NCBI GenBank assembly: GCA_020844795.1
Contig: CP086218.1
Location: 269,288 to 305,845, forward strand
Direction: 5' to 3'
Origin: Methanothrix sp.
GTDB taxonomy: Archaea; Halobacteriota; Methanosarcinia; Methanotrichales; Methanotrichaceae
Length of the DNA stretch: 36,558 nt
This document shows, piece by piece, positions 1 through 16,817 of the stretch. Each line of letters starts with the position of its first letter. Within the stretch, counting starts at the first letter, position 1. Position numbers and translations under genes: made by a program. The notes below the pieces were generated by a model. It saw only the letters and a program-made list of their open reading frames with translations. It was not told the DNA's origin and ran no database searches.

Positions 1-34
1 GAGGATTGAATATCTAGGTCGAATAAAAATATAT

Positions 35-60
35 GGGTGGAAAGGATCACTGATCCACCC
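35..60 (-). terminator. Hairpin plus T-rich tract, probable terminator
   Basis: Read on the minus strand, GGGTGGA and TCCACCC (35-41 and 54-60) can pair, with an alternative inner stem GGATC-ACT-GATCC. A T-rich stretch follows at about 22-34. It lies just beyond the TAA at 67-69, the second in-frame stop of the secreted gene, rather than just after the first stop at 178. That placement suggests the coding region once ran to 67. Confidence 0.5.
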
Positions 61-66
61 TTACAA

Positions 67-735
67 TTAAGGTGCTGCTTCAGACCAGGATGGAAAACCT
101 CCACTTCCCCCCCACCCACTGGACGATGAACTGCCACCGGACGAAGAACAACCGTAATTAAAAGATACCTGTCCTACTCAGATGCAGGGTAGCGATGATG
201 AACTACCTCCGGATGATGAACTACCATAATTAATGCTGCTCGCCCCCCACGCCTTTGACTGGTAAGAACTTGGCAACTTGGCCCCCGAGAGTCTTACCGG
301 TTCTCTCTCTGATGGATCAGGCATTACTGATAGCCAAAAGTTAGTTACTAATTCTGATTTTGCCCAGTCAGGTGTTTTAGGCTCTTGAAGGGATCCTATT
401 AGCAATACCCCTTCCACTGGTTTGATTGCGGTTTTTACTGAAGGATGAGCCCAGCCCACTAGGTTAGCGAGATCCATAACTCCGCCCCACATCAAATCAT
501 GTCCCAGTTTATCGTATTTCGGATCATACCAAGGGGTGCCTCCTATCCAGGTGCTTCCCAGATCACCGAAGGCAATAATCGAATTAACTGGTCTATCCGT
601 AACTACGGGGATGGCTTTTTTCCCGAACTCCTCGAAATTTTGTTCAACGCCTACAACAGCAGGCATCATTAAAAGGATTGCTGCCGCCGCGAAATACAAT
701 AATTTTAATGATATTGTTATTCCTCCTGGGAGCAA
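67..735 (-). pseudogene. Secreted Ser/Gly-rich protein gene, probably inactivated
   Basis: I do not recognise the family. The intact part (178-735, up to 185 codons) begins with a hydrophobic signal-type segment (SLKLLYFAAAAILLMMPAVVG), continues as a soluble domain containing GTPWYDPKYDKLGHDLMWGG, and ends in an NYG plus Ser/Gly tail. Two things look broken. A TGA at 178-180 interrupts a reading frame that continues 37 codons to TAA at 67-69 and repeats the NYG-SSSGGSSSS tail. A strong AGGAGG at about 721-726 sits 7 nt before an ATA at 712-714, where an ATG would be expected; the only upstream candidate, TTG at 733-735, lies before that ribosome-binding site. If translated, the product would be exported or membrane-anchored. 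A functional gene using the TTG and the shorter end remains possible. Confidence 0.55.
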
Positions 736-739
736 TTCC

Positions 740-1184
740 GTATCGCTACTAATTAAATTTTCCCTCCTTCCGGGGGCATCTTTTAATCAGCTCCAGGAGG
801 GCGAGGACGACGGGATGGGTGGCCAGATAGACCGCCCTCTCCTCTGGGTCCAAGCTGGCTATCTCGGCTCGGGAGTTGACGACTCGGATCTGCATTATGG
901 AGGTGGTGACAGTCCCTACGGGCAAAAGAGGTTTCGATCCCCGGTATCAAGCCCTGCAATCCCGGCCCTCTGGCGAAGGGGAGTTGGGCATGCGTAAGGG
1001 GCACAATATGCCAGAGGGCTTTCGGGGCGGGGCGGGTTCCCGGACGCCCCCCAGGACCTCGATCCCGGCTCCCCGTTTAGAAGTGGTGATTCTTGGATAG
1101 CAGGTGTCGAATCCCATGGAGAGCTGTCAGCGAGGTCCTGGAGAGGTTCAAGCTGTCTCTTAGTTGATCTCTCCTATGCTTAAA
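740..1184. other. Gene-free interval
   Basis: I see no convincing gene in these 445 bases: short frames overlap on both strands with no ribosome-binding site or protein pattern. It holds GC-rich potential hairpins around 1020-1075. It also holds the 20-base motif tttcgatccccggtatcaag at 932-951, which recurs with one extra C at 13060-13080 next to the truncated integrase. Confidence 0.5.
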
Positions 1185-1595
1185 CTACGACGGTTCGGCC
1201 GCCTGGCGGAACGATACCAGACCCCTAAGTTTCTGTATGCTCGCCATAGCTTCGGCATGATCCCTCCGCTTCTCGTCCTCGATACGCTTGATGATATCGT
1301 CGATGGGCTCAATCAGAGTATAGACCAACGATAGTCGTCCCTTACTTCCGGACTTGACCTCGAGCTCGCTGACCAAATTTTCGTCGCGAAGATCTCGCAC
1401 CGCCACGCTGACCTCGGGCTGGCTTAGGCGCGTAGCATGTCCGATCTCCCTCGACGATGCCTCACCCACGTTTGCCGGATATGTGACGATGAGGGCCACC
1501 CTGCGCTGCATACCTAAACTGTGGAGGATATCCGCAAACTCGATATCCTCGTTGTCTAGCACTTTGACCGAGCTTTCCTTCGTGTAGATCACCAC
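1185..1595 (-). CDS. MarR/TrmB-like winged-helix regulator
   Basis: A 136-residue probable DNA-binding protein. Residues about 25-80 form a winged helix, with the recognition region EIGHATRLSQPEVSVAVRDL followed by a wing around SGSKGRLSLVY. The charged tail (IIKRIEDEKRRDHAEAMASIQKL) looks helical and could dimerise. This layout fits the MarR/ArsR/TrmB superfamily, but I cannot place it in a subfamily. The start overlaps the end of the Hfq-like gene by 7 nt, so the two are very likely co-transcribed and translationally coupled. It may control its own operon; that is inference. No metal-binding cysteines or ligand domain are visible. Confidence 0.75.
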   Translation of the reverse strand: MVIYTKESSVKVLDNEDIEFADILHSLGMQRRVALIVTYPANVGEASSREIGHATRLSQPEVSVAVRDLRDENLVSELEVKSGSKGRLSLVYTLIEPIDDIIKRIEDEKRRDHAEAMASIQKLRGLVSFRQAAEPS

Positions 1596-1894
1596 TTCTG
1601 AACCGAAGGCTTCACTTTCTTGGGCTTGTCCTCGTATTCGATCGAAGATATAGCTCCTTTGAATACGATAATCTTCTTTCCATGGCCAAGATCGAGGAGT
1701 AACTGATAGAGGTTGTGGGCTTCAAGCACCCCTTTTATGGGTCGGCCGTCCTTCATGCGAATATTGATCGGCCCGCTTGAGATCTCAGGTATAAACTGGG
1801 GCGGGCCGCTGGCCTTCATTTCAGCCTTGGAACCGTCCACGATGGCGGCAGCTTGATCATCAGCATTCGGATCTATATCTGCTTCATTGCCCAT
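1589..1894 (-). CDS. Hfq/Sm-like RNA-binding protein
   Basis: A 101-residue protein with a disordered acidic N-terminus (1-40) and a single Sm-type fold at about 42-88. The Sm1-like part reads NIRMKDGRPIKGVLEAHNLY, with the following strand QLLLDLG. The Sm2-like part is IIVFKGAISSIEYED, close to the Hfq signature YKHAIST with Gly in place of His. Hfq/Sm proteins form rings that bind U- or A-rich RNA; archaeal Hfq is known from Methanocaldococcus. The frame extends up to 1999. I chose ATG 1894 because a TATA-like sequence at 1933-1945 and GAGGGAG just before 1894 fit a short leader there, while the upstream extension would start before the TATA box. The next gene overlaps its stop codon. An RNA chaperone or small-RNA regulator is the likeliest role; a non-Hfq SmAP is the alternative. 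Confidence 0.65.
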   Translation of the reverse strand: MGNEADIDPNADDQAAAIVDGSKAEMKASGPPQFIPEISSGPINIRMKDGRPIKGVLEAHNLYQLLLDLGHGKKIIVFKGAISSIEYEDKPKKVKPSVQKW

Positions 1895-1932
1895 TGCTGG
1901 CTCCCTCGGGGAGTTGAACCGGTTTTCAAGAG

Positions 1933-1945
1933 ATTTATATTTTTT
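1933..1945 (-). promoter_or_regulatory. TATA-like box for the Hfq-like gene
   Basis: The minus strand reads aaaaaatataaat. It lies about 40-50 nt before ATG 1894, giving a predicted leader of roughly 15-20 nt that contains the GAGGGAG ribosome-binding site. It supports the downstream start. Confidence 0.4.
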
Positions 1946-2000
1946 GATATCTAAAATCATATCCGACGAGATGAGAATGCACCTATGCCGTATGCTCAAG

Positions 2001-2396
2001 TCACTGACGGCCCAACGCCTCCGCTTTCAGCTTTCGAGCCTTCGCCGTAGCTGCCGCTCTATCCATCTTCCGGGTGGATCCCAGGTGGACGTTCTTGACC
2101 TTGTCGCCTTCTCGCCAGCTCGCATACCAATAAGTGTAGGTCATCTCGCCCTTCTTCGTCTTCTTCGCGATGCTCCCCTGGTAAACCGTCAGAGCCTCCA
2201 GCCGGGCCGCGTTCCACAGTTTGTCGGCCTCGCCCTCCAACCTGGCAGCTTCCGCCTCCCTCTCCCTCGCCGCGGGTTCCAGTCCTGATATCTCGCGGAC
2301 CTTCTCGGCCTCTCGCCTCCACTGCCTGGCCTCCTCTCTTAGGGACTTGATCTCCTCGCCAGATGTTGTTTTGTAGACGATCTTTTGCCCCGCCAT
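2001..2396 (-). CDS. Small coiled-coil protein with DUF6788-like tail
   Basis: A 131-residue basic protein. Residues about 12-70 are a charged helix (LREEARQWRREAEKVREI and on to LEGEADKLWNAARLEAL), likely a coiled coil. Residues about 72-110 resemble the DUF6788 pattern found in archaeal mobile elements: YQGSIAKKTKKGEMTYTYWYASWREGDKVKNVHLG, a short beta domain with aromatic residues and a terminal LG. The biochemical function is unknown; DNA binding is a reasonable guess because of context and charge. ATG 2396 sits about 26 nt from a TATA box, implying a nearly leaderless transcript. The promoter is enclosed by a perfect 14-bp inverted repeat, which suggests tight (perhaps self-) regulation. 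The downstream Hfq-like gene has its own promoter. Confidence 0.6.
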   Translation of the reverse strand: MAGQKIVYKTTSGEEIKSLREEARQWRREAEKVREISGLEPAAREREAEAARLEGEADKLWNAARLEALTVYQGSIAKKTKKGEMTYTYWYASWREGDKVKNVHLGSTRKMDRAAATAKARKLKAEALGRQ

Positions 2397-2400
2397 GCAT

Positions 2401-2454
2401 ATTAGTTATGTGACTATACTATATATAGGTGGTGGGGAGAGTCACATAACTAAT
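2401..2454 (-). promoter_or_regulatory. TATA box enclosed by perfect 14-bp inverted repeat
   Basis: Arms attagttatgtgac (2401-2414) and gtcacataactaat (2441-2454) are exact reverse complements separated by 26 bp. The spacer carries cctatatatagta on the minus strand (about 2416-2428), a good archaeal TATA box for the gene starting at 2396. A dimeric regulator on both arms would straddle TBP/TFB binding and the start site. A related half-site sequence recurs at 13080-13101. Confidence 0.6.
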
Positions 2455-4063
2455 TGGGGCGAACATAGGCGGTGCAAAGCGGTTCCATAAGTCCAAAAAA
2501 GGCCATGGAGGAGGTGCGGAGCACTGCCAGCTATCGGTGGTTAAACCAAACCTCGGGTCAAGAATATAGTTCAAACCTATAATAGCAAAATTATAAATAT
2601 TTACAAATCTCATTTCTCATTTCTCATTGATATATTAACTACTCTCGTCCGCCGCGCGAAGCGTGGCGGCGCGAGGCCCTGGGTGCTTCCCCCCGAAAGC
2701 AGATCCGCCCCTCAAGCTATCCCGACCGCGTTTCACAGCGGTATGGATCTGATGGTGGGAGGCATCCTCCCCCCCAAATCGGCGAGGCCGATGGAGATGT
2801 ACCTCCGGGATCGGTCAGCAAAGAACAGGAGGCGGTGGTTCGAGAGGCAAGCCCCGCTCCTGCGAAGTATCCTGCCACACCAAGACCGGCCCGGAGGGTT
2901 GTGCGAAGCACATTTGCGGTACCCGCGCTCCTGAGCCCCTTATCGGGCCGGTGGATAAGAACGAGGCTGAAGGATCGAGGAGGATCAACAGGCCGCCCAA
3001 CGCACATTTGCGTACACCCGGCCCGTCGCCCCACCGCAGAAGCGGCAGAGCCGAGAAAGCGGACAGGGCTGATCATGGCATCCGGTCACGCGCGAACACC
3101 AGACGCGCGCGGACCGGGGCCTTGATCTGCCCTGGACGCTCACACCGCCGCTTCGGCAACAAGGGGGGGACGGGTCACGCAAATGTCGTGACTGGGCGAG
3201 CCGACGGCCAATTTAGGGATTCCACAGCCCCTCTGTTCCAGATTGATCAACCCAGCCAAGTTAGTGGAATCAGCATATATCCAGCTTACAACCGGCGCCT
3301 TGGCGCCGGCGCTAACAGGCAAATGGAGCTCCTGGGAGAACCGAACCTGCTTGAGGTAGAATATCTTCGCCTCCGCTTCCCGCCTCGGGACCGTCGGGCG
3401 AAATGGACTTGGCCCCCTTCGACGCGATTAGTGACCCCAGCATGAGTTTGGGTATACCCACTCATTTTACGCCGCCCTTGGCCTGTGGTCACGATAAATC
3501 TCCCCCCCGATTTTGGTAGTCGCTCGCCTCCCTGGAAATTAGCGCACCGATGATGATGATCATCCTACCGAGAACTCCCGCGAATAGAGCCGGCTGATAA
3601 GATGGTGCGCATAATGAAAGTTGTCCGGAAGCAGCTTTCCAATCAGAGTTGCGAAAAGCCCTGCCCGGGATATATCAGACTCGGCATCCAGAGCGTCGAA
3701 AGCTGATAGCAGATCTGCCCCCGCCCCAATTGATACAGGTCCGCATAGCAGCTCCCGCCCCCAGATAATCAAGCTCATGAACCCGGGTAGTCTACTGCAA
3801 CTGAGTTGATCTCACTCTCCAAGATAAAATGGGCGACAGAAAGAAGGCAATTACGTCGATTGGGTCTCATAAGTGCTATCATATTGGATGAGGGTTCTCG
3901 TTATGGTTTTCATGCGCAACAACTCGTTATAGATAAACTACCCCACGCTCCCACCATATTCATGCGCAATAAACGTGAGCGAAAGTCAAACTTCCGCACA
4001 CATTAATTAAAAAATTAGAAGTAGCAAAAGCTTTCCTTAATTCAATGGCGGCTGCGCGATATT
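2455..4063. other. Long gene-poor interval with a GC-rich island
   Basis: No gene here is convincing. 2455-2640 is AT-rich and ends in a triple ctcattt direct repeat (about 2611-2631). 2641-3480 is abruptly GC-rich with many short hairpins (for example ggcgccttggcgcc near 3295) and overlapping frames on both strands that lack start signals or protein-like composition. The motif catttgcg recurs at about 2911 and 3005, and inverted near 3178. A near-palindrome around gggtataccc lies at about 3442-3465. 3480-3784 is mixed. A repeat element occupies 3785-3944. The island could be a decayed gene or a structured RNA; I cannot decide. Confidence 0.4.
3785..3944. repeat. Dispersed 160-bp element, copy A
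   Basis: It begins gggtagtctac and ends ataaactacccc, so its ends are imperfect inverted repeats. It shares a left-end block (gggtRgtctac, then tgatctcac) and a right-end block (tggttttcaYgc, caacaactcgttata) with copy B, at the same overall length. No open frame of note lies inside. A non-autonomous mobile element (MITE-like) or a structured intergenic repeat are both possible. Confidence 0.6.
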
Positions 4064-4624
4064 TCATAATGAAAACGTCGTTCCACCGCCTCTTGATTCC
4101 GATTCAAAGAACGAGGTGCTCACTGAAACCGCGGTAAATCCTTTGATGGCGTCTTCTAAATCGCCCTTATCGAAAGCAGTCACCGAAAATAGCGTGTAAT
4201 CGTCGAGAAGAGTCGAACCGACATAAGCATCCGTGTTTAGCGAATCCAAGCCGGCGGCCAGTCCCCATTTCCGCCCGTTGACGGTTGCTGTTTGCAGGTT
4301 CTCCTGCACATTGATACTATCCTTTGCCGCCGCCAGGGCCAACGCTTCGAAATTATATTCGGCCAACGGCTTGTCGGCGTTTTTGGATTGAAGGTAAAAG
4401 TTCAACGCGAGATTTTCGGTCGATCCCATCGCGATGCTGACTGGAATCGTTCCCAAGTATTGATATGGAACAGCAAATCCGATGACATCCACGTCAAGGC
4501 AAGGTGGTTCCGAAGTGAGAGTTATATGCCATCCCTGCATATCGAACTCGCAGGCAGCGCTGGCGATTCCCGATGCCAGCATTAGAAATACCGCGATTAC
4601 CAACACCATTTTACTTCCACTCAT
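4064..4624 (-). CDS. Secreted protein of unknown function
   Basis: A 186-residue product starting MSGSKMVLVIAVFLMLASGIASA, a textbook Sec signal peptide with cleavage after ASA, about residue 23. The mature part has two cysteines near its start (ACEFDMQGW, EPPCLDVDV), then a Ser/Thr- and Ala-rich soluble domain with no repeats or transmembrane segment. The frame extends upstream to 4783, but ATG 4624 is preceded by GGAGGG with 7-nt spacing, and only this start puts the signal peptide at the N-terminus. The likely location is the extracytoplasmic face or S-layer region. I do not recognise the family. It stands alone, with no operon partners. Confidence 0.7.
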   Translation of the reverse strand: MSGSKMVLVIAVFLMLASGIASAACEFDMQGWHITLTSEPPCLDVDVIGFAVPYQYLGTIPVSIAMGSTENLALNFYLQSKNADKPLAEYNFEALALAAAKDSINVQENLQTATVNGRKWGLAAGLDSLNTDAYVGSTLLDDYTLFSVTAFDKGDLEDAIKGFTAVSVSTSFFESESRGGGTTFSL

Positions 4625-4783
4625 TCTATTTCCCTCCATTTGTTTGGTGGTGCTCTTCGATTTGGCTGATATTTCGCGTTGGATTTTTGGAGATGCTACA
4701 CAGTAGTACTTTTTGACTGCAGGATGGATCAAATGGAGTATTCCAAAAATCAGAATCGATCTCCTTCTCTTTGAATATGTCAA

Positions 4784-5068
4784 CCAATTCTAAATGCACT
4801 ACCACTTAATTTTTGAATGAGTCATATCAATATATAAGGATTTCGATTGACCTCCGACCTTGTGCCTTCATTTAAATAACCTTTAAATAGGCTTGGTCCT
4901 AACTTTAAGATTTTATAATGGGTTTTGAAAATCCTATAAAAAATTAAATTGAATTAATTGAACATGATATTATAAATCGATAACTTTTAAACTACCAATT
5001 TCATAACTCACGGTGCAGAATGTGGGATGCTTAAATTCCATCACTACTATTATAGATTGGGAATAGTA
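4784..5068. other. AT-rich intergenic region
   Basis: No gene is seen. Several TATA-like runs occur (for example near 4831-4840, 4915 and 4970), but none stands at a supported start codon. Confidence 0.4.
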
Positions 5069-5228
5069 GGGTGGTCTACCTCAAATGATTTGATCTCACA
5101 ATATCCGATCACGTGGGAAGGAAAGGGAAAGTTGGTTGCATCTGATTTGCCTCCACAAATGCTATCTCTGTGGGTGAAGCCACCCATTGTGGTTTTCACG
5201 CCCAACAACTCGTTATATGTAGACTATC
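5069..5228. repeat. Dispersed 160-bp element, copy B
   Basis: It has the same length and ends as copy A: left gggtggtctacc, then tgatctcac; right tggttttcacgc, caacaactcgttata and gtagactatc. The middle has diverged but keeps a potential hairpin (tgggtg-aagc-caccca, about 5171-5186). The ends resemble the short palindrome GGTAGWCTACC. Confidence 0.6.
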
Positions 5229-6797
5229 TGAACCCGGCCTATTGATTAATCAGATGTCTCACCAGCAGGTAATTATTCGCCAAGTTGCGCATTTTCTCCC
5301 GCCGGAGAGTCGCGGATAGACTGGAGATCCTCGCCCTCGTGATACCTCGGTAGGCATTAGCCCCCCGTATTTGCTGACCAGCTACCACGCTGAGGAGTAA
5401 CCGAGTTGCTCGGGACCGATCCGGCGCTCCGTTTCTTCTTTGCTTAATCACTATCGTTATTCAGGACCAATATGCAAATCTGCCTGCGCTACAATGAGTG
5501 GGGTTGTAGTTGAAAGTCCCCCCGGGACATCTAATAGGCAGAGACAGGAGCTGCGCTATCTGAAAGCATATCATCTCCCGCCGCAATTGCATCAAATCCC
5601 CGGATATTCTCCATGCCCACGATGATCCAGCAATATATCCCCAGGCCCTGCCGTGCACACCGCCTGCACCCCTCCTGCAACCAAGATGATAGCAGTATCC
5701 ACATTGCGACTCGCACACCTCGAATGATCCATGTTTTTCAGATCAGCGCATTCTCCAGGAATAAACGCCGCGAAGCCGCGAGGCGAGGTCCGGCCGAAGG
5801 CCGGGGCGAGGTTCGCGGCGAGAGCGGCGGCGCTGCCCTTGGGTCCCCTCCGCCTCTTGCATTCTAAAGAAGGTATTGCGTTGATTTATTGAATTGGGGT
5901 ACAGCGACGACGAAGACGCGGACCGCAGGCCGCGCCGCTGGTCCTCGCGGTATATGCCGTGAAGGGAGGGACCTGGGCACCTTCCACCCCCCATGGAATC
6001 GCCCCACACCTTTTTTCGCGCGCCAGATCTCGAGGAGCGCATCTTCTCCTGCCACAACCTATCCGGCGAATATTCTGATGCTGAGGAGAAGGTGAACGGA
6101 CGGACCTTTTATGCTGGATATGATCTGTACAAGCTGTTTAGGGCCCCAATATTTCCCGACGGGTACTTGGGATACCCAAAGCAAAGATTAAGTCCCAGAA
6201 AATGGCTGTACAGCGTTTTTAACGTGGTCCTCGCGATCAGTGGAACTGGCCCCGTTCCTCCGTTTAGACGCTATCCTAACCTCACCACGAGCAAATCAAG
6301 ATGCTCATCACCTGCATTTGACGGAATGGATCCTGCAACAGACCTCTAGGATGGCGGGCGCAAGGATTCGTGCCTCAGCATCCATCCCGGGCGGCATTGA
6401 TTACCAATAATCCCGTGGACAACCTTAGGCTAGGCCCAGTATCGGATTGGCGTTGGTCCGCTGCAAATCCCTTCCAAGCGACGTTTCCTCAGAAGAACAA
6501 GAAACAAATTATGATCTGGTATGAATTCAACAGAAAACTTTATTACTGATTGAGATGATGATAACAAGGGGTTCAAATCAGACACCATGCCACATCCTCC
6601 TTAAGATGGCATCGCAACCATTTGCCCTCTACCCAGCCAAGGGTGCCGTATCTGGAACGAAACCCGGATACAGCACCCTTCTTCTGCCATATTCTCCTAA
6701 ACAGATCATCAATCCAATTGCACGCTGCTACCCCGCCCAAGGGGCAGAAATATTCTCCGCGCAGAACATTTAGATACCCAGATTTCAGATTGGCCCC
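5229..6797. other. Gene-poor interval, GC-rich island
   Basis: I see no supported gene. Around 5461-5720 short overlapping minus-strand frames contain clustered cysteines but no recognisable domain. 5760-6080 is a GC-rich island with a perfect hairpin CCGGCC-GAA-GGCCGG at 5790-5804 and other stems. 6080-6797 is mixed sequence with fragments of frames on both strands. Decayed genes are the simplest reading. Confidence 0.35.
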
Positions 6798-6873
6798 AGC
6801 AGTTGCTATCATATTGGAGTGGGTTGCTTGGTGCGGTTTAAAGGGGCAAAAAATCACTATAGGTAGACTACCC
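6798..6873. repeat. Dispersed element, partial copy C (right half)
   Basis: It matches the right half of copy A: tgctatcatattgga is identical, followed by a diverged middle and the end tataggtagactaccc. No matching left end is seen about 160 bp upstream, so this copy is truncated or strongly diverged on that side. Confidence 0.5.
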
Positions 6874-7719
6874 GCGTTCTCCGCAATCCTCCTCCTCAAC
6901 ACACCAGTTCCTGCAAAGAATATATATCGTTAAATACCTCGTGATCTATATTTCTCGATATATGCATCGAAAGTGCGATATCCCGGGAGCATCCGCGCCG
7001 GACGGGGTATCTTGCCACAGAGAAACGAGGCATAATGTCCCGTCTATGATGAACGCCCTCCCCTTTGATATGGAAACGCCCCCGTGGCTGGATGAGAGTA
7101 CTCGCGAGGATCCTCGGCGGCCAGGTCCCCCCCCTCGAGCTCGACCTCCTCAATGCTGCCACAGAGCCTCAATCGAGGCCGCCATAGTCGATGCCCAAGG
7201 AGATCCTGCCCCTCACAGATACCACTATTCAGATTTCGGCCTCCTTCTCTCGCATATCACAACTCCCGGGCTGCAGAATATCTAGTCCACCTCGGTTCCA
7301 AGCCCCAGGATATCAGGCCGCCACCCATCCATTCCGCCAGATCATCACGTCCCCCAGGAACGCGGCCCCCTCTCACCAAAGCGCCCACCTCCCCGAGAGA
7401 ACGGCGCCCACGAGTACCGCAACACGCATCACCCCAGCGCCCTGAGATAGCGCCACATCGAGTCCCAGGCGCCCAAGATCCGACAGCATCGGCAACGCCG
7501 CCCAGGGCATCAACCTCCTCAAACCACAAACCATGCCACCACGACAATAATCTCCCGGGATCAGGGCAGCAGGGACCACCGGCAGCGCCAAAACCACAAT
7601 CTCATCACAAACCACCACGCTACACCGACTCACCATCCCTCAAATACCAACGCCACAACCAGACAGCAGAAACACACACCACCACACCCAAACAACAATT
7701 TGCCTATATAATATGGTTA
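6874..7719. other. Gene-poor interval ending in A/C-skewed segment
   Basis: No complete gene can be supported. From about 7490 to 7700 the plus strand is roughly three quarters or more A+C. Minus-strand frames there read as hydrophobic fragments (for example VVLALPVVPAALIPGDY) in different frames, which could be a decayed membrane-protein gene or only the result of the skew. A TATA-like sequence for the minus strand lies at about 7703-7712. Confidence 0.35.
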
Positions 7720-8139
7720 TAAAATGATCATAATGAATGATCAATGATGTAAATATTAACATTTAGCCTAAAATAGGAACAGGATATTTTCTCTAGCATA
7801 TAACGAAATATTAATAATATAATATTATATAATATTTAACATATTGTCTAGCGTCGATGTAGAACGCCATAAGCGGGAGGCTGACATGTCTCATCAGCAT
7901 CACAAGCGATCCCCTCGGCCGGGAGGATGAAGACGCCCCTTATCGTCCTCCGCCCACCAAGGGCCTTGCTGGCCTTGTGGTCATCCCATTCTTTGGCCTG
8001 CATTAAAACCTTGAGCACTTTGGCTTCATTTCTTCGTTCTCCAGTGGAAAAGCACCCTTACTCAAATCAGGACGTTTCTCAAACACTACACCAAAATCAA
8101 TCTATTCACGAAGCCGCAGCATAGCGATAATGATACATA
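7720..8139. other. AT-rich tract and spacer before iteron-like repeats
   Basis: No gene is supported. 7806-7846 is nearly pure A/T (aaatattaataatataat and onward). Paired tgatca motifs lie at about 7727-7743. 7850-8139 is ordinary sequence without a convincing gene. Confidence 0.4.
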
Positions 8140-8341
8140 GTGATATTAGTGTAATCACCAAGCTATTGTTGTCTTCATACAGAATAGTATATGTGTCTTG
8201 TATAGGTATCTAATACACATATACTCCCCTAAGGTAAACACCTGACCAATCATTACACTAATATCACTAATATCACTAGCAATGGCGACGCATAGCGTTT
8301 GACTTGGTGTAATGATTGCCGATTTTGGTGATATTAGTGTA
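8140..8341. repeat. Inverted iteron-like repeat array, candidate origin or operator
   Basis: gtgatattagtgta occurs at 8140-8153 and 8328-8341, and its exact reverse complement tacactaatatcac at 8254-8267. The last nine bases, taatatcac, are repeated again at 8268-8276. A second pair, caatcattacac (8247-8258) and gtgtaatgattg (8307-8318), is perfectly inverted. The array lies immediately downstream of the primase-helicase gene and about 300 bp from an AT-rich tract, as expected of a replication origin. A transcriptional operator array is the alternative. Confidence 0.55.
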
Positions 8342-8351
8342 GTAGTCGAAA

Positions 8352-11300
8352 TCACGAGCATGACCACCCCTTATCGCCCGACGCATCCTTAACGCTATCG
8401 GGTAACTGCTCGAAGTGCCATTCCCGCACCTCCTCGTCCGCAGTGGCATACAGGCAGATTCCTTCGTAATATTCCCCATCGCTCCGCCTAACCACCGTGA
8501 CCCCGGGGATCTCGCACAATAGGGGCCTGATCTTGCGTGGTTTGAGGGGGTGCAAGTTGCTTTCCTCACAGTATTCCTTGTACGCCTTATGGAACTCGAC
8601 AGTTCTCACCCGCTGACCGGGGCATACAATAACCTTGTAATCAACGTTGATAAAAGTTTCGAGGCTGTTACATGATTTCTTGTACTCTTCATGTGCCTTC
8701 AACACTTCCTCGGGTGGAGTTAAGCCGTCTTTCAGATACATTGCGTACCCCTCGATACACCACCAGAGTATGGCACTACGCTCCGAGTCAAGTTTGTCAC
8801 CCAGTGTCCGGTCCTGGCGCCCCTTGAAGCTGACGTGGAAGGGTATAACCTTGACCCGATCCCAGGCGGCCGCGGTCGTTTCGGTGATTAGAGGTCTGTT
8901 GTTGCCAGCTAACCATATCGTACCTTGCGGAGTAAACTGGATCTCCTTCTGGTACAGGGATCTGGCCCTGATAGGATCCCTTCCTGTCCACGGTTTCAGT
9001 ACCTCCATGTTGAGGACAGCATTCTCTCCCGGCTCCCCTGCTGTAATGAATCTCTTACCCCGGAGATTAACCAAGTCATCGCGTATATCTGTCCCATGTT
9101 TCTTGCGGAGGAACGTCTCCATATTTGCGTGGATACCGTACTCGCCACACATTGTGCGGATCGATATTTGGAAGACTGATTTCCCGTTGTCTCCATCCCC
9201 GGTAGCGTCGTCACCGTAGAAGAAACATTTCTGAGACATGTCCCCCGAGATCCCGTAGCCCACGCATCTCTGGACCCAGTTCCTGATCTCCTTGTTGGGC
9301 CAGACTTCCTCGACGAACTGGTTCCACCGCTTGCCGACTGCTCCCTCGACCATCTCGCATCCCCCGAGGAGCGAAATGAGATCCTCTCTCTTGGGGAGGT
9401 AGTAGACGTTGTTCCGGAAGTCGAAGGTGCCCCCTATGAACGTCATTTTCATGGGGTCTGCATCCCATTCACTGGCATCGACGACGAGATCCATGTCCCG
9501 CGAGGCCAACATCACCATATTGTCGAAGCCACGACGCGAGTCTGATATTTTAGCCCAGTCAGGTTCGCCTTCCTCGGGCGGACCTTTGGAGTATAGGTGG
9601 GTGACGACATCTCTGGCCAATGCGAATATTCGACCAACCCTATCTATCGCCCACCGATTCCCGTCCCATATGAACCACGAATTCATCTGAGGGCAGTAAC
9701 GGACATTCTCGCCATGCAGTTCCTTCAGCCGGCTAGCGTTTCCGCCTTCGGTGTTAGGGTAATTGGCGACGAAAGCTGTGCCACCCACGGTCCTATTCGC
9801 CTTCTTCTGTGTCTCGGCCTCGTCGTCAATCATCTTCTTGAGGGTGCGGAGCTTAACCCCGCCCGATTCCTTCAGATCATTGGCGAGGATATCAAACTCT
9901 AAGTGGTCTTTTTCTCGGAGAGTCAGCAACGCCGCCAGGACGTCTCGGTCTTTGAGCTTCCGGGGATTCTCAGTCAGTGCCTCCATCATGGTCTCCAGGA
10001 AGTCCCTGGCCTCCGCCCCGTCGGGGTCCGCCCCGTAGTCGCCTGGCCACTTGCATCCCGTACACTGGTCGTTAGGCACGCAAAGCCCCAGCTCGCCGAA
10101 GCTTAGGACCGGATAACCCGCCCCCCGCTTCTGGATAGTCTCGCAACTCGGTGAGTTGATTACCCCATATGATGTAAAGAAGATTCGCGACTCGACGCCG
10201 CACCTGGCTGCCACCGGCCCCCACAGCTGGAGGGCCTCCTCTTCGGGCCAACCTGCCTGGTAAAGCCATGTCGCAAGACCACCACAAACCCGATGCGCTC
10301 CAGCACCGCCCGGGAACTCCAGAAGAGCCCGATAGAAGGGACACCACGATTCAACAGGGATAGGCTCGAAGGATCGCCAGATATCGCCGGAGGTCTTCGC
10401 CTTCGCCGTCACATCCTCCGCGGCCCTCTGGCGGTAAGGTTCCACAAGCTTCACGAGAGCGGATCTCTCGCCCTCACCAGCCTTCCAGGTACTCAGCCAG
10501 ACCTTCGCCCCCTCTACCGTCTCGGCGGGGAGCCCGTGGTCTCCGATCCTCGCCGCCTCCAGGTCAATCTTGATATCATCCCGATCAAGAGGGACGACCG
10601 CAAAAGGTAGGGTCTTATGGATCGATAGCATGCACTTGATTTTTCGCTTAATGTTGTTGAGCTTATCGAATTTCACTCGCCCCTTGTGCTCCGGGAACTC
10701 CTGGAAAAACGCCTTCTCGATATCCGCCAGAAGATCGTTAAACGCCATAAGATAGATTTTAAAGGTCTCGTCTAGCTGGTCGCGGTCGAAGTCGGGGAGG
10801 GCCCTCACCTCGGACATATCCGAGAGCCCCGGATGGAGCCAGACGTAAATCCCCTGTCCTGAAAACGCGACCATCACCGAATCAGTGATTCCGCGCTCTT
10901 TCAGGTATCTCACCATGAACGTGGCCGCCGCTTCCAGGCCCTCGATGCGGCCTTCGTGATAAATCTTAGATCTAGGCTTACCTTCTTTGTCGCCTTTATC
11001 GGCCTCATCTTTAGTCGCGTCGATATCGGCGATGAGGGTGTAGGCGATTAAGTCACCCCGTTTTCCAATAGATACAACGGGTTTACCCTCGCCACCCCGG
11101 CCCTCCTCCCACGGTACAGAGGTCTCGAATACCGCCGGGTCAAATACATCAGCAGTTATATACAGTGTCCGCGCCCTGCTTATTGTGTCGTCGAAGTCGT
11201 CTGGGCCCCGGAGTCTCACCTTTTTATCTTGGTGTACATACCACCCATTGTCACCGTTGAGGGCTCGTAGACCTCCTCCATACTTGCATTGCCGCAGGAT

Positions 11301-11357
11301 GATATCTCGGACCTCAGGGCGCTCGTAATGCTCTATCGTAATAGGGGAGGAGGACAC
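8352..11357 (-). CDS. Primase-helicase replication protein (AEP-like plus SF3 helicase)
   Basis: A 1001-residue fusion. The N-terminal part fits an archaeo-eukaryotic primase fold: acidic motif LIADIDA (about 108-114), SGQGIYVW (166-173, the usual His of SxH appears replaced) and SIHKTLPFAVVPL (245-257). Cysteines at 339, 358, 405, 426, 432 and 435 resemble the Fe-S or zinc region of primase large-subunit-like domains. The C-terminal half is a D5/P4-type SF3 helicase: DGDNGKS Walker A (721-727), an acidic region near 755-775, and sensor AGNNRP (817-822). Such proteins start and unwind DNA at virus and plasmid origins. The start is GTG with GAGGAGG upstream, directly abutting the stop of a 44-aa ORF. 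It is the last gene of a four-gene operon; iteron-like repeats follow its stop. Confidence 0.85.
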   Translation of the reverse strand: MSSSPITIEHYERPEVRDIILRQCKYGGGLRALNGDNGWYVHQDKKVRLRGPDDFDDTISRARTLYITADVFDPAVFETSVPWEEGRGGEGKPVVSIGKRGDLIAYTLIADIDATKDEADKGDKEGKPRSKIYHEGRIEGLEAAATFMVRYLKERGITDSVMVAFSGQGIYVWLHPGLSDMSEVRALPDFDRDQLDETFKIYLMAFNDLLADIEKAFFQEFPEHKGRVKFDKLNNIKRKIKCMLSIHKTLPFAVVPLDRDDIKIDLEAARIGDHGLPAETVEGAKVWLSTWKAGEGERSALVKLVEPYRQRAAEDVTAKAKTSGDIWRSFEPIPVESWCPFYRALLEFPGGAGAHRVCGGLATWLYQAGWPEEEALQLWGPVAARCGVESRIFFTSYGVINSPSCETIQKRGAGYPVLSFGELGLCVPNDQCTGCKWPGDYGADPDGAEARDFLETMMEALTENPRKLKDRDVLAALLTLREKDHLEFDILANDLKESGGVKLRTLKKMIDDEAETQKKANRTVGGTAFVANYPNTEGGNASRLKELHGENVRYCPQMNSWFIWDGNRWAIDRVGRIFALARDVVTHLYSKGPPEEGEPDWAKISDSRRGFDNMVMLASRDMDLVVDASEWDADPMKMTFIGGTFDFRNNVYYLPKREDLISLLGGCEMVEGAVGKRWNQFVEEVWPNKEIRNWVQRCVGYGISGDMSQKCFFYGDDATGDGDNGKSVFQISIRTMCGEYGIHANMETFLRKKHGTDIRDDLVNLRGKRFITAGEPGENAVLNMEVLKPWTGRDPIRARSLYQKEIQFTPQGTIWLAGNNRPLITETTAAAWDRVKVIPFHVSFKGRQDRTLGDKLDSERSAILWWCIEGYAMYLKDGLTPPEEVLKAHEEYKKSCNSLETFINVDYKVIVCPGQRVRTVEFHKAYKEYCEESNLHPLKPRKIRPLLCEIPGVTVVRRSDGEYYEGICLYATADEEVREWHFEQLPDSVKDASGDKGWSCS

Positions 11358-11492
11358 CTAGACCGCCTCCTCAATGGATTCTGTTAACTGGTCCGATGGA
11401 GACTGTTTTACCACGGGTCCTTCTCGGGGATTTTCCTCCGGGATCGCGCTTGAGTAGGAGGTTTTAAATAAGATGAGTATAATAATTACCAT
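11358..11492 (-). CDS. 44-residue small protein
   Basis: An ATG frame of 44 codons plus TAG that exactly fills the gap between two operon neighbours. It starts 5 nt after the stop of the 104-aa gene, and its TAG is followed without a gap by the GTG of the primase-helicase. The product begins MVIIILILFK (hydrophobic) and ends in an acidic helix (DQLTESIEEAV). GTGAT before the start partly matches an archaeal ribosome-binding site. The hydrophobic start could be a membrane anchor or a packed helix; no family is recognised. The tight tiling argues for a real gene; chance remains possible at this length. An internal TATA-like tttaaaacc (about 11460-11470) could also serve the primase gene. Confidence 0.5.
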   Translation of the reverse strand: MVIIILILFKTSYSSAIPEENPREGPVVKQSPSDQLTESIEEAV

Positions 11493-11497
11493 CTAGA

Positions 11498-11812
11498 TCA
11501 CTTGGTCGCTCCCGTGGTCTGTGCGCAGTGTTCGTCGCTTCCACCGGTTTTGGCACCACCGGCAGGCGAATTTTTCTTCGCGACGGAATCAACAGTTCGG
11601 AACCGGTACGGTCTGGCGGGGTCGTCGCAGCGAAGTAGAGCGATCCTCTGGCCAACGTGAGGGCGCAAAATATCAGCCATTTCTGTTGGAAGAGCAAGAA
11701 CGATCTTTCCGATTTTAACCAGCAGAATGCTTTCTTCATCGTTAAGTTCGGTGAGATGGCCGACCGCCTCCTCCCAGGGGTGTAGACGGCGGATTTCTAT
11801 GGAGGGTATCAT
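11498..11812 (-). CDS. Small conserved-looking protein of unknown function
   Basis: A 104-residue protein. Residues about 25-72 are beta-rich: ESILLVKIGKIVLALPTEMADILRPHVGQRIALLRCDD, then PARPYRFRTV. The tail (SPAGGAKTGGSDEHCAQTTGATK) looks disordered. The pattern resembles small proteins I associate with plasmid and viral DNA in methanogens and haloarchaea, but I cannot name a family. Its ATG overlaps the stop of the upstream regulator gene (11809-11812), so the two are translationally coupled. It sits between a regulator and the replication protein, suggesting a role in replication control. Confidence 0.65.
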   Translation of the reverse strand: MIPSIEIRRLHPWEEAVGHLTELNDEESILLVKIGKIVLALPTEMADILRPHVGQRIALLRCDDPARPYRFRTVDSVAKKNSPAGGAKTGGSDEHCAQTTGATK

Positions 11813-12069
11813 TCCTGAACTCCCCCGGTTGGTAGGCCATGCTTCTTCGCGATGAAGACACGTACTTTGCCGAGTCTCTTTTCAATAGCCAATCCGGCTT
11901 CTACTGTTTTAGCGAGGTGCTTCTCCGCCGTGACGTAAGAACAGCCCACGGTCTGTGACACTTCCGCTGCGCATGTCGCCGGTGTGGATTTTAGAATATC
12001 CAGCACCTGCGCTGCGATTTCCCGGCTTGCGCGGGGATGCAAGACGCTATCGAGATCTGTCAGGACCAT
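11809..12069 (-). CDS. Winged-helix transcription regulator
   Basis: An 86-residue single-domain protein. The HTH region is CAAEVSQTVGCSYVTAEKHLAKTVEAGL (about 33-60), followed by a short wing (EKRLGKVRVFIAKK), as in ArsR/MarR-type archaeal regulators. No sensor residues are visible. It heads the replication operon and faces a divergent regulator gene across a 158-bp spacer full of palindromes, so copy-number or lysogeny-type control is plausible; this is inference. Confidence 0.7.
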   Translation of the reverse strand: MVLTDLDSVLHPRASREIAAQVLDILKSTPATCAAEVSQTVGCSYVTAEKHLAKTVEAGLAIEKRLGKVRVFIAKKHGLPTGGVQE

Positions 12070-12227
12070 GCTACCTCACATGATGGATTAAAATAAATAG
12101 CAATATCAAACTAATCGACCCTCATTATCCAATATATTGGCTAAATTAGCCGAAATCTAATATATTGTAGTTTAACAACATATTGTAAGCAAACTATATA
12201 TGTGAATTGGGACACATATCATAAAGT
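12070..12227. promoter_or_regulatory. Divergent promoter region with palindromes
   Basis: Perfect palindrome CCAATATATTGG (12129-12140) overlaps GGCTAA-A-TTAGCC (12139-12151). Related aatatattg boxes lie at 12131 and 12159, and acatattgt near 12178. ATATGTG/CACATAT (12198-12204 and 12213-12219) is a 7-bp inverted repeat next to the TATA box actatata of the rightward gene, whose ATG is at 12228. These look like operators for the two flanking regulators. Confidence 0.55.
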
Positions 12228-12845
12228 ATGAAATGGCAAGATACGGTCAAGCAATCGGGCGAAGAAAAAAAGAGCTTAGTTCTTATGTACCTAGCTCTTG
12301 GAGAAGATTATTCTTATAACATGGCAAAAAAGTACTTTTCAATAGAGGTAACAGAAGAGAAGGGTTGGTCAGAAGATAAGCTTAAAAAATTAAAAAGTTT
12401 GAAGGACCCCAGCCAACTCAGCCATCTGCTTAAGGAAATGGAAAAAAAAGAGCTTCTTATTTCTATTGATACAGAAGTAAATGGCCGTAACAGGCAAGTC
12501 TACCGATTGAATCCCCTAATTTTATGTAGCATTTCAAATATCCCTAATATGAAAAACCCTCCCGAAGCAGAAATCATAAAAGCATTCTTGGACGAATTGA
12601 GTAAAAAAGAACGAGAAACTTATTTTGATGTTTGGAAAACTATGAAAATTTTAGATTTCATTTCTTTCTTATATTTCCTGGAAAATGAATCGAAAGAACT
12701 TGATATTAATGATGTAACTAATATTCTTAGTAAGATCATTGATGACCATTTCGAGTTGGAGAAATCTATTAGAAAAATACAGAGAAAAATAAATAGCCCA
12801 TTTTCTGCAGGTCAAATACTTAGGAAGAAGGCCAGAAGAGAATAA
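12228..12845 (+). CDS. PadR-like winged-helix regulator
   Basis: A 205-residue lysine-rich protein. The N-terminal 100 residues look like a PadR-type winged helix: LVLMYLALGEDYSYNMAKKYF, then LSHLLKEMEKKELL and the wing NGRNRQVYRLNPLIL. The C-terminal half (about 115-195) is helical and charged and could dimerise. The gene is markedly more A/T-rich than its neighbours, suggesting a separate origin. A TATA box about 30 nt before the ATG implies a leaderless transcript. It converges tail to tail with the integrase fragment, with no spacer between the stop codons. It probably represses element genes; PadR identity is tentative. Confidence 0.65.
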   Translation: MKWQDTVKQSGEEKKSLVLMYLALGEDYSYNMAKKYFSIEVTEEKGWSEDKLKKLKSLKDPSQLSHLLKEMEKKELLISIDTEVNGRNRQVYRLNPLILCSISNIPNMKNPPEAEIIKAFLDELSKKERETYFDVWKTMKILDFISFLYFLENESKELDINDVTNILSKIIDDHFELEKSIRKIQRKINSPFSAGQILRKKARRE

Positions 12846-13079
12846 TTAAATCACCCCCAGCTGCGGTATGTGCGCGAGGTAGCTTTCGCGAAGCTCCTTC
12901 TTGTCGATGTGATCATAGATGTCTATGGCCTCCTTCCTCACGTCGCCACGTAGCTCCTGGATAAACTCGCGGGGCATCCCCGATCTCCTCATGTGGGTGG
13001 TGAACCAGTGTCTGCAGCAGTAAGTGGAGATGCAGGAGCCTGGATCGCCTATAACGACGTTTCGATCCCCCGGTATCAA
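12846..13079 (-). pseudogene. Truncated tyrosine integrase, C-terminal fragment
   Basis: The last 57 or so residues are almost identical to the end of the complete integrase: CCRHWFTTHMRRSG, ELRGDVRKEAIDIYDHIDKKE and SYLAHIPQLG. This includes the RHW arginine and the active-site tyrosine. Homology starts at about 13022; the first 20 or so residues (MIPGDRNVVIG and on) come from unrelated sequence. The DNA differs at many third positions while the protein hardly differs, so this is an old or imported copy rather than a recent duplication. It lacks the N-terminal and first catalytic-arginine regions and cannot recombine alone. It is likely the remnant of another element that used the same site. 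Confidence 0.8.
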
Positions 13080-13407
13080 GGTGGGGAGATAATCACATAA
13101 CCGCAGGAAGGGCGTGGAGGGGAGCCATCAGGGTCGTCAAGACCCAGAAGCAATAGGCCACCAGAGCCCCCAGGAAGTCGGATCGAAGCGCCAGAGATAG
13201 TGAGGAGACCTCCAGGATATGACACTCCAGGATTGGATAAGAGATTTGAATATCGAGGCGTTATATAAATAGCAGAGAGGCAGATCTATTCTATAGCGGC
13301 CCTGCGATCCCGACTTTCTGGGGGAGACCCTCTGGTCGAGGAGGGGTAGACAGTGCAACGGTTAGACTCAGAAAAGAAAGGGGGGCGGGAGAAAGGCCGA
13401 AGATCGC
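13080..13407. other. Interval between the two integrase copies
   Basis: No gene is supported. It begins with ggtggggagataatcacata (13080-13099), similar to the operator region at 2431-2450. It contains a TATA-like sequence gttatataaatag at about 13259-13271 with no clear gene to serve. It could mark the junction between successive insertions. Confidence 0.4.
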
Positions 13408-14376
13408 CTATATCCCTAGCTGCGGTATATGCGCAAGGTAACTCTCTCTTAGCTCCTTCTTGTCGATGTGGTCGTAGATGTCGATCGCCTCCTTCCGCAC
13501 GTCCCCCCGGAGCTCCTGGATGAATTCGCGAGGCATCCCCGATCGTCTCATGTGGGTGGTGAACCAGTGTCTGCAGCAATGAGGCGAGAAGTGATCCTCC
13601 ATCCGATCCGACTCGGGCTTGTGGATGCCGGCCCGCTCCGCCGCCTTGGTGATGGCTGTGTAGACGCCGTTCCTATTCAGCCTTCCGCCGGTGCTGTTGG
13701 TGAAGAGGGCTTTTGAGTCGCCGCCGTTCCGGGACGCCCTCGCCCGTAGCCACCTCTTCAGGATGAAGGCGGTCTCGTCGTCGAAGAAGACTATCCGGTT
13801 CGTCCTCTTGGGCGTCGGCTTCAGCCTGATGCTCTGCTCCACCCAGTCGATGTCGTCGAAGTCGAGAGTTATCATCTCCTTTCGCCTGATCCCCGTTTTC
13901 GCGAGGAGGGTGATGATCGCCTTGTCGCGGATGTCCATGGTGGAGTTGATGAGGTGGGTCATCTCTTCGATGGAGATGAGCTTTCTCATCTGACCATCGT
14001 CATTGTCCTTGTACCTCCTCAGATACCTCTTCCTCACCGAATGGACGGGGTTCTTGTCCACGTGCCCCTCGTACTCAAGAAAATCGTAGAAACCCGATAG
14101 CCCGGTGAAGTAGTTCTCGATCGTCTTCTGGTGGACGTCTCGGACTTTTCGGAGGTATTCGAGGAACTTGCGGATGGTGTTTCTATCGGCCCCGAGGAGA
14201 TCCATCCCGTTATCTTCGAGGAACTGGACGTAGATCCTTATCGATGAGAGGTACCTTCGAGTCGATTCCGGCGATAGCCCCCGGATCTCGCTATCTTCCT
14301 GGTATTGCTCTATCAGGTCCTCGTGAAGTAGGGAGTCGAGCTCTGAGGAGCTCCTGTCAGAGGCCTTCTCCATCAT
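13408..14376 (-). CDS. Tyrosine recombinase/integrase, XerC/D-like
   Basis: A 322-residue integrase of a type common in methanogens and haloarchaea. A SAM-like core-binding domain (about 20-105) precedes the catalytic domain. The catalytic set is visible: Arg in TGIRRKE, a Lys near TPKRTNR, HCCRHW (H-x-x-R), ELRGD where many relatives have LGH, and Tyr in IDIYDHID. It cuts and rejoins DNA at the attachment site, here presumably the tRNA-Leu 3' end about 560 bp away. I chose ATG 14376 because GGAGGTG lies just before it and it overlaps the upstream stop as ATGA; the frame also allows a start at 14391. It is co-translated with the RHH partner gene. Confidence 0.88.
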   Translation of the reverse strand: MMEKASDRSSSELDSLLHEDLIEQYQEDSEIRGLSPESTRRYLSSIRIYVQFLEDNGMDLLGADRNTIRKFLEYLRKVRDVHQKTIENYFTGLSGFYDFLEYEGHVDKNPVHSVRKRYLRRYKDNDDGQMRKLISIEEMTHLINSTMDIRDKAIITLLAKTGIRRKEMITLDFDDIDWVEQSIRLKPTPKRTNRIVFFDDETAFILKRWLRARASRNGGDSKALFTNSTGGRLNRNGVYTAITKAAERAGIHKPESDRMEDHFSPHCCRHWFTTHMRRSGMPREFIQELRGDVRKEAIDIYDHIDKKELRESYLAHIPQLGI

Positions 14377-14894
14377 CCCACCCACCTCCAACCTCTCGGC
14401 GATGAGGTGATGAGCCCGTAAGTCTCCAGGTTTTCTAGCTCCGTCGATACCGCCTTCACGATGTCGGCTTCCCGCGGATCGATCCCGAGCTCTTCGAGAA
14501 GCCGGTAGTTATCAACAAGGTCGCCGCGTTTCAGTATCTTTATGAGCTCCCGGCTGTACTTCCTGGCGCCCTCAAAATCGTCTTCAAGGAAAGCGGCGCT
14601 CCGATACCTTTTCAGCTCGTTCTCGTACTTATCGAGGACGATGTTTTTGAGCTTCAGCTCCTCCTGGAGCTTCCTGATCATGTCCCTCAGAGAGCCGAGC
14701 TGCTTGACGAGCTCTGCGCGAGGTTTGATCTCCGCCTCATCCGCCAGAGCGTTCTCCACGATCTCGATCACAAACTTCGAGAGGGGTAAACCGGCCTCGG
14801 AGGCGAGGTTATCCCATCGCTTCTTATCCTCTGTGGAAGGAAGGTAGACGTAGACATAACGAGACTTGTCAGGTTTAACCAAGATACCCACCAA
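14373..14894 (-). CDS. RHH-like coiled-coil protein, integrase partner
   Basis: A 173-residue protein. Residues about 12-50 look like a ribbon-helix-helix domain (RYVYVYLPSTEDKKRWDNLA, then LPLSKFVIEIVENAL). Residues 56-97 are a charged coiled coil, and the C-terminal part (about 110-173) is helical and may be a winged helix (LEELGIDPREADIVKAVSTEL). It precedes the integrase with an ATGA overlap and starts about 50 nt from the tRNA-Leu 3' end. Position and DNA-binding character suggest an integrase accessory or directionality factor, or a regulator of the integrase. That is inference. Confidence 0.65.
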   Translation of the reverse strand: MVGILVKPDKSRYVYVYLPSTEDKKRWDNLASEAGLPLSKFVIEIVENALADEAEIKPRAELVKQLGSLRDMIRKLQEELKLKNIVLDKYENELKRYRSAAFLEDDFEGARKYSRELIKILKRGDLVDNYRLLEELGIDPREADIVKAVSTELENLETYGLITSSPRGWRWVG

Positions 14895-14937
14895 GGATAT
14901 ACTTGGGCATCTTGTTATTTAAAGATTACTAGTAAAT

Positions 14938-15025
14938 TGGTGCGGGGGATGGGATTCGAACCCACGAACTCCTGCGAGACAAGGCCCTCAACCTTGCGCC
15001 TTTGACCTGGCTTGGCAACCCCCGC
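14938..15025 (-). tRNA. tRNA-Leu (anticodon GAG)
   Basis: A class II tRNA. The acceptor stem GCGGGGG pairs with CCCCCGC. The anticodon loop TTGAGGG gives GAG, closed by CAAGG/CCTTG. A long variable arm and the T-loop GGTTCGAATCC follow. CCA appears encoded (14938-14940, after discriminator A at 14941). It lies 38 nt after rpoD on the same strand and its 3' end faces the integrase module, the usual arrangement for an archaeal integration site. Confidence 0.95.
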
Positions 15026-15063: not shown

Positions 15064-15864
15064 TTATGCGAGGTCGCTCAGCTGCTCGCTCAGCGACGAA
15101 GCGCGCCTCTTGATCTCGGTCGCGGCCCCTATCACGAGGTCTTTTGCTGAGATCGATCCGTCGGTATCGATCTTCATGACGAAGACGTCCTCGATGGGAA
15201 CGACCTTTATTCTGCCGGTTTCGCACTCGACCACACAGAGCTTGCACAGGGAGCAGCTGGTGGGGTCGGTGACCTTCACCCTTCCCTCCCCCTCTTCGAT
15301 CACCAGGATCTCGCGGGGGCAGACATCGGCGCACTTTCCGCAGCCCTCACAATCTTCGCTGATCCTGATGTCTGGGAGGTTCTTGTAGCCGCACTGGGTC
15401 CCTGCCTGCCATTTGGTGTGGACCGACCCCCGGTTGAGGGTGACGATCCCCTCCAGCATCAGCTTCTCGCCCTCCCCCAGGATGGCTAGGGGTATCTTCT
15501 CGAAGGCGACCTTAACCGCCGGATCTCCAAACCTCAGGTCTCCAGAGTGGACGGTGGAGGGCCCCTCTGCCGTGAGGGTCATCCCCACCTGGCAGGCTGG
15601 ACAACCGGCGCCGCCGCAGTCGCACTCTTCTGAGACCCTATACAGGCTGAGGTCCTCGGCCTTGATGGGCACAAGCCCCAGCCTCAGGGAGAGCTGCTCG
15701 TCGAAGAGGACCGATGTATTGTCATAAATACTTATCTCATCGATGGCGAGGGACGGTACCTCCGCGAGGCAGGCCCTCCTTATGCCGTTGGCAAAGGCTG
15801 GCGTCACCCCCCTGAGGAGGAACCTCACCCGGTCCTCTCCGAGCTCTAAGAGTTCCACCTTCAA
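15064..15864 (-). CDS. rpoD: RNA polymerase subunit D
   Basis: A 266-residue archaeal RpoD (Rpb3/alpha-like), which nucleates polymerase assembly with subunits L, N and P. The dimerisation part includes FANGIRRACLAEVPSLAIDEISIYDNTS. An inserted ferredoxin-like domain has two complete four-cysteine motifs: C172-C175-C178-C182 (CEGCGKCADVC) and C204-C207-C210-C214 (CSLCKLCVVEC), consistent with two Fe-S clusters as in Methanosarcina. A further cysteine group C81, C83, C88, C91 (CDCGGAGCPAC) could bind zinc or another cluster. It is the last protein gene of the rps13 cluster, 3 nt after rps11. Confidence 0.97.
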   Translation of the reverse strand: MKVELLELGEDRVRFLLRGVTPAFANGIRRACLAEVPSLAIDEISIYDNTSVLFDEQLSLRLGLVPIKAEDLSLYRVSEECDCGGAGCPACQVGMTLTAEGPSTVHSGDLRFGDPAVKVAFEKIPLAILGEGEKLMLEGIVTLNRGSVHTKWQAGTQCGYKNLPDIRISEDCEGCGKCADVCPREILVIEEGEGRVKVTDPTSCSLCKLCVVECETGRIKVVPIEDVFVMKIDTDGSISAKDLVIGAATEIKRRASSLSEQLSDLA

Positions 15865-15867
15865 AGC

Positions 15868-16257
15868 TTACACCCGTCTCCCCCTCTTTCCGCCAGAGGG
15901 CTTAGTGCCGTCGTGGGGGATGGGTGTCACGTCCTCGATCCTTCCTATCTTCAGCCCTGCTCTCGCCAGAGCTCTGATCGCCGCCTGGGCACCGGGTCCT
16001 GGAGACCTCTGCCGGTTCCCGCCGGGGGCCCTGACCCTGACGTGGACGCCTATGATCCCGTTGGTCATCGCCTGCTCGGCGATCTGCCCCGCCATCTGCA
16101 TCGCAGTATAGGGGGAGCTCTCGTCTCTGGCGGCCTTGACCACCATCCCGCCCGAGATCTTGGCGATCGTCTCCGCGCCGGTCAGGTCGGTTATGGTGAT
16201 GATGGTGTTGTTGAAGGAGGCGTATATGTGGGCGACGCCCCATTTTCCTTCTGCCAT
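15868..16257 (-). CDS. rps11: Ribosomal protein S11
   Basis: A 129-residue protein of the 30S platform. It begins [24 protein letters not shown] and ends with the conserved [21 protein letters not shown] region, full length for the family. It lies 2 nt after rps4 and 3 nt before rpoD, as in the standard archaeal S13-S4-S11-RpoD order, so translation coupling is likely. Confidence 0.97.
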
Positions 16258-16259
16258 GT

Positions 16260-16802: not shown

Positions 16803-16817
16803 AATAACCCGCCTCCA

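Follow-up and report, generated by a model that had tools for sequence, protein, structure and literature searches.

The window, the whole stretch of 36,558 nucleotides of Methanothrix sp. that was analysed (G000:C1:269288-305845), belongs to a scaffold (G000:C1) of 2.02 Mb that is interrupted by 100-N gaps, from an assembly that is 87.7% complete and contains the 23S rRNA only as a fragment. Relatives identified through rpoD include Ca. Methanocrinis natronophilus Mx (G007; 96%) and the Methanothrix harundinacea group, and the host is an acetate-using methanogen. The genes on one strand follow the order rps13-rps4-rps11-rpoD-tRNA-Leu(GAG), followed by a tyrosine integrase gene and some 15 kb of accessory DNA with a lower GC content (Table 1); the GC content is 0.38–0.58 across positions 1–15000 versus 0.53–0.64, mostly near 0.6, to the right. 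No rpl18e, rpl13, or rps9 was found among the window ORFs scanned. The original prediction had described this arrangement, with the tRNA 3' end facing an integrase and about 15 kb of accessory DNA without rpl18e, and ARAGORN, Pfam, GC content, and the ORF scan confirmed it. Base 1 of the window comes directly after a 100-N gap (G000:C1:269288), so that "no rpl18e before the window ends" amounts to "before the contig ends", and because the scaffold is gapped, its contig order is weak evidence.

Table 1. Features of the tRNA-Leu(GAG) locus and of the separate rpl18e cluster (window positions unless stated otherwise)
Feature	Position	Strand	Remarks
Contig end	1..106		Its reverse complement opens the attR contig (identical 106 bp, G000:C1:450584-450689)
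Probable winged-helix regulator	1185..1595	-	MarR-like, under cut-off
Small protein	1589..1999	-	Weak Hfq/Sm-like similarity, under Pfam cut-off
Primase-helicase (D5_N)	8352..11357	-	1001 aa
Two small overlapping ORFs	11498..12069	-	86 and 104 aa; conserved in M. natronophilus element
ORF205	12228..12845	+	AT-rich; 90% identical in M. natronophilus element; no family
Second copy of last 60 integrase codons	12852..13031	-	93% identical; tblastn
Tyrosine recombinase (integrase)	13408..14391	-	327 aa, intact; Pfam PF00589 Phage_integrase E=7e-31; PHROG 1
ORF173	14373..14894	-	Overlaps integrase gene start; 97% identical in M. natronophilus Mx
11-mer TTACTAGTAAA beside core	14926..14936		Recurs as TTTACTAGTAA on the core's opposite side at attR
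attL core TCCCATCCCCCGCACCAATTTAC	14932..14954	-	Comprises the final 17 nt of the tRNA and 6 nt of flank; same sequence at attR
tRNA-Leu(GAG)	14938..15025	-	Intact, encoded CCA; integration target (attB); ARAGORN
rpoD	15064..15864	-	In class Methanosarcinia, no further protein gene of the r-protein unit follows it
rps11, rps4, rps13	15868..17273	-	Core chromosome, right part of window
Five-helix leader RNA	G000:C1:1962822-1962933 (L002:10823-10934)	-	Directly upstream of rpl18e; outside window

The integrase has an HxxR motif and a C-terminal tyrosine, and it is encoded by one ORF about 540 nt from the att core, with ORF173, which matched no Pfam or PHROG family, in between. The att site does not interrupt the gene, and a suicidal (SSV-type) integrase was rejected because int is unsplit and the att site lies outside it. 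The second copy of the integrase end is absent from the M. natronophilus element and is either a remnant (of a tandem element) or a local or tandem duplication. The first of the two small overlapping ORFs shows a weak likeness to transcriptional regulators. On its attR side, the element encodes a HEAT-repeat protein with AglB-like domains, a TPR protein, a DUF1699 protein, and, near attR, a 54% paralogue of the winged-helix regulator.

The N-terminal half of the primase is 65% identical to the DNA primase of the methanogen virus Caudoviricetes sp. vir515 (BK063672, host Methanosarcinales) and 69% identical to that of the M. natronophilus element. The protein appears mosaic, as its helicase half cannot be aligned at this 65–69% level. 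The virus has head, tail, portal, and terminase genes, whereas no major capsid, portal, or terminase gene was recognised among the element ORFs scanned, and neither the head and tail genes of vir515 nor its RecT gene had a convincing counterpart in the element. A Caudoviricetes provirus is not supported, given the lack of capsid, portal, and terminase matches among these ORFs and a tblastx comparison with vir515 that gave nothing convincing outside the primase. Among viral contigs, the primase had no match and the integrase had two distant or partial ones.

By searching the genome with its own tRNA region, we found attR as a 23-nt exact match on another contig (G000:C1:459515-459537). It consists of 17 nt of the tRNA 3' end and 6 nt of flank, followed by TATCGATTTTATGAAGAGATCGCGCCGC, and the sequence after it is the native tRNA-downstream sequence of relatives (131-bp match to G008, 86%). 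Four other tRNA-like matches in the genome were rejected as attR, being full tRNA-Leu genes (CAG, TAG, CAA, and TAA). There is no attR immediately left of the window in the scaffold, because the scaffold neighbour is not the true neighbour of this contig. The start of a TnpB-like ORF lies at the end of that scaffold neighbour, left of the gap (L003:13997-14305, G000:C1), and TnpB-like repeats may account for the contig breaks. The 106-bp overlap between the window and the attR contig (G000:C1:450584-469903) is exact and runs end to end at both contigs, and the genome holds no second full-length copy of it; the attR contig therefore very probably continues the window directly leftward, an adjacency that rests on this overlap. 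The two att sites are about 175 kb apart in the scaffold and in opposite orientation.

From core to core, the element measures 23,779 bp with a GC content of 52%. When the flanks were joined without it, they aligned unbroken to relatives (95% over 130 bp to G001 and 91% over 170 bp to G008) and matched the native tRNA flank of G006 at 91%. Insertion at tRNA-Leu, as originally predicted, is thus borne out by attL, attR, and the empty sites of uninterrupted relatives (G001 and G008), and the copy of the tRNA 3' end for which the prediction had proposed a search left of the window is found, with an identical 23-nt core, on another contig of the same assembly. Since the 11-mer beside the core stands on opposite sides at attL and attR, TTTACTAGTAA flanks the core of the predicted attP both left and right, and these copies might resemble arm-type sites.

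This organization points to a 23.8-kb integrative element, plasmid- or provirus-like, whose own tyrosine integrase would have recombined a 23-nt attP core with the tRNA-Leu(GAG) 3' end, restoring the tRNA intact at attL and leaving a 17-nt tRNA 3' fragment at attR. Archaeal tyrosine integrases of the pNOB8 type likewise keep int intact after integration, have their core in a tRNA 3' end, and restore the tRNA (PMC8371274). The 23-nt core is shorter than the 40–60 bp of several archaeal groups, and cores as short as 8 bp have also been reported (PMC8371274). The element is an ordinary, well-resolved tRNA integrative element; the leader RNA described below is the more interesting result.

The same tRNA gene is occupied in other genomes. 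In M. natronophilus Mx, it carries a related element (integrase 95%, ORF173 97%, and primase N-terminal half 69% identical); the flank shared with G000 does not restart there until about 35 kb away from the tRNA, and an attR could not be recognised, so that this element is comparable only in part. In G006, the insertion at this tRNA-Leu is a different one, 9.4 kb long (L053:909-10286), which has its own duplication of the tRNA 3' end (about 62 bp). Judged from these insertions, the tRNA-Leu 3' end is a repeated target, or hotspot, and the present element is a later occupant. A casposon of M. mazei, in the same class, reportedly also targets a tRNA-Leu 3' end. That casposon uses Cas1 (PMC6977970), whereas the element here has a tyrosine recombinase. 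Several genomes of the Methanosarcina type have two or three tandem tRNA-Leu(GAG) genes after rpoD (L078, L081, L082, L092, and L093), where Methanothrix-type genomes have one. Directly beyond attR in G000 lie genes for an Hma-like helicase and methylase (HmaA E=7e-184, HmaB E=4e-132; L070:9868-18034, G000:C1:460451-468617), with a Schlafen/AlbA_2-type protein encoded between them; this flank is 97% conserved in M. natronophilus.

A contiguous S13-S4-S11-rpoD-(tRNA-Leu)-L18e-L13-S9-rpoN order has been described in M. jannaschii and A. pernix (PMC10833476). We compared the best matches to rpl18e and rpoD in 100 relatives, with the class Methanosarcinia comprising families f1 to f4 (f1, Methanotrichaceae type; f3, Methanosarcina type; f4, a further, third family) and the Methanocella family coded as f12. 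The two genes were adjacent in none of the 86 class genomes in which both were located, relatives without the element included. They share a contig in 33 of the 86, at a minimum distance of 49.7 kb; in G001, which is complete, they are 196 kb apart, and G022 and G023 are also among the complete or near-complete genomes. The Methanocella family is split as well (adjacent in 0/4). By comparison, 35 genomes outside the class carry rpl18e 16–385 bp downstream of rpoD (80 phylum genomes compared), and the two gaps that were read, in G165 and G105, both hold a tRNA-Leu. The premise that rpoD and tRNA-Leu are followed by rpl18e, rpl13, and rps9 thus holds for other lineages and fails in this class. 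Compared with the contiguous archaeal alpha/L18e cluster (PMC10833476), the class keeps both halves with their internal order, but is split after tRNA-Leu throughout; in G000, an intact rpl18e-rpl13-rps9 cluster lies at G000:C1:~1961600-1962834, with rps2 downstream. These gene orders show that the separation of rpoD and rpl18e is ancestral to the class Methanosarcinia and common to the Methanocella family. The insertion falls after the gene that ends the rps13-rps4-rps11-rpoD-tRNA-Leu unit, and it did not part this unit from rpl18e.

An ancient integration or rearrangement at the same tRNA 3' end could have split the operon in the class ancestor, with the present element a later occupant of the site. 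Almost all class members examined have kept the tRNA-Leu next to rpoD, which places the ancestral breakpoint just 3' of the tRNA, and the occupants seen in M. natronophilus and G006 agree with repeated targeting of this end. However, the roughly 1 kb preceding rpl18e held no tRNA 3' remnant in any of 13 genomes, the Methanocella family has a different tRNA-Leu (TAA) after rpoD, and ordinary gene-order change would give the same picture; we regard this origin of the split as unlikely. Far less probable is that the element itself recently split an rpoD-tRNA-Leu-rpl18e operon, as originally proposed. The contiguous order in the 35 phylum genomes from other families speaks for such a split, but the complete G001, G008, and other element-free relatives also lack rpl18e after the tRNA, and the attR flank leads into the Hma-like defence cluster, not into rpl18e. 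These empty-site relatives refute the proposal, since every close relative, whether or not it carries the element, has rpl18e at another place; the story of a ribosomal operon cut by a mobile element is wrong, and it is replaced by a split ancestral to a whole class of methanogens. Despite the gapped scaffold and incomplete assembly, it is highly improbable that errors of assembly or binning created the apparent insertion, as the tRNA-integrase junction lies inside one contig and recurs at 93% DNA identity in the separately assembled M. natronophilus genome, and attR is likewise inside a contig. We are highly confident in the explanation as a whole, in which the element integrated at tRNA-Leu(GAG), the operon split is older, and the rpl18e cluster has its own start region.

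This start region comprises a TATA-like box and a structured leader RNA. This insertion does not entail the loss of read-through transcription once suggested for the downstream ribosomal genes: the rpl18e cluster, being separate, has a TATA-like box (a putative promoter element; CTTAAATA upstream of rpl18e in f1) and a leader of its own. The leader, about 100 nt long, is conserved upstream of rpl18e in the split lineages, and alignment of 25 leaders yielded a structure with five helices. The junction is closed by P1 (CCGCA/UGCGG or, for f4 and f12, CCGUA/UACGG), the 3' strand of which shares positions with the Shine-Dalgarno in UGCGGAGG. Thirteen of the 23 pairs vary on both sides, and 91.5% of cells are paired, with P2 and P5, which are imperfectly aligned, at 77–78%. 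Sliding the partners by 1–3 columns lowered pairing to 25–48%, and none of 500 shuffles, which do not preserve relatedness, matched the paired percentage or the covariation score. Centroid folds of divergent leaders gave mostly P1 and hairpins. The energy z-scores lie between -1.4 and -4.5; for the G000 leader, which is GC-rich, energy taken by itself is therefore weak evidence.

A covariance model found exactly one match per genome, ending 3–14 nt before rpl18e, in 45 of 50 f1, 2 of 2 f4, and 4 of 4 f12 genomes. The five f1 genomes without a match lack a full rpl18e in their assemblies, which makes the count 45/45 where the gene is present, and 26 of the matched f1 genomes were held out from the training set of the model. 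The remaining 134 phylum genomes, which include f3 members and were searched with stricter filters, gave no match. The leader had no match in Rfam 15, and no description of it was found in a search of the open-access literature; it is likely an undescribed r-protein leader. The archaeal L7Ae 5'-leader is likewise structured and directly upstream of an r-protein gene, but contains a k-turn (PMC5539422, PMC6298567), whereas the rpl18e leader has a five-helix multibranch fold. The most likely function would be autoregulation at the level of translation, by a protein that the operon encodes. We lean slightly toward a scenario in which, with the alpha/L18e split in the ancestry of Methanosarcinia and the Methanocella family, rpl18e-rpl13-rps9 gained an autoregulatory five-helix leader that would be bound by one of the operon's proteins, with P1 over the Shine-Dalgarno, as an undescribed archaeal family. 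If the leader is autoregulatory, the half of the operon left without its upstream partner would have regained control of its expression, and the leader would add to the few known archaeal r-protein leaders. Weak matches also occur in nine f3 genomes, all about 27 nt upstream of rpl18e, where a reduced leader core is kept (UUCGAACGC..GCGUGAGU).
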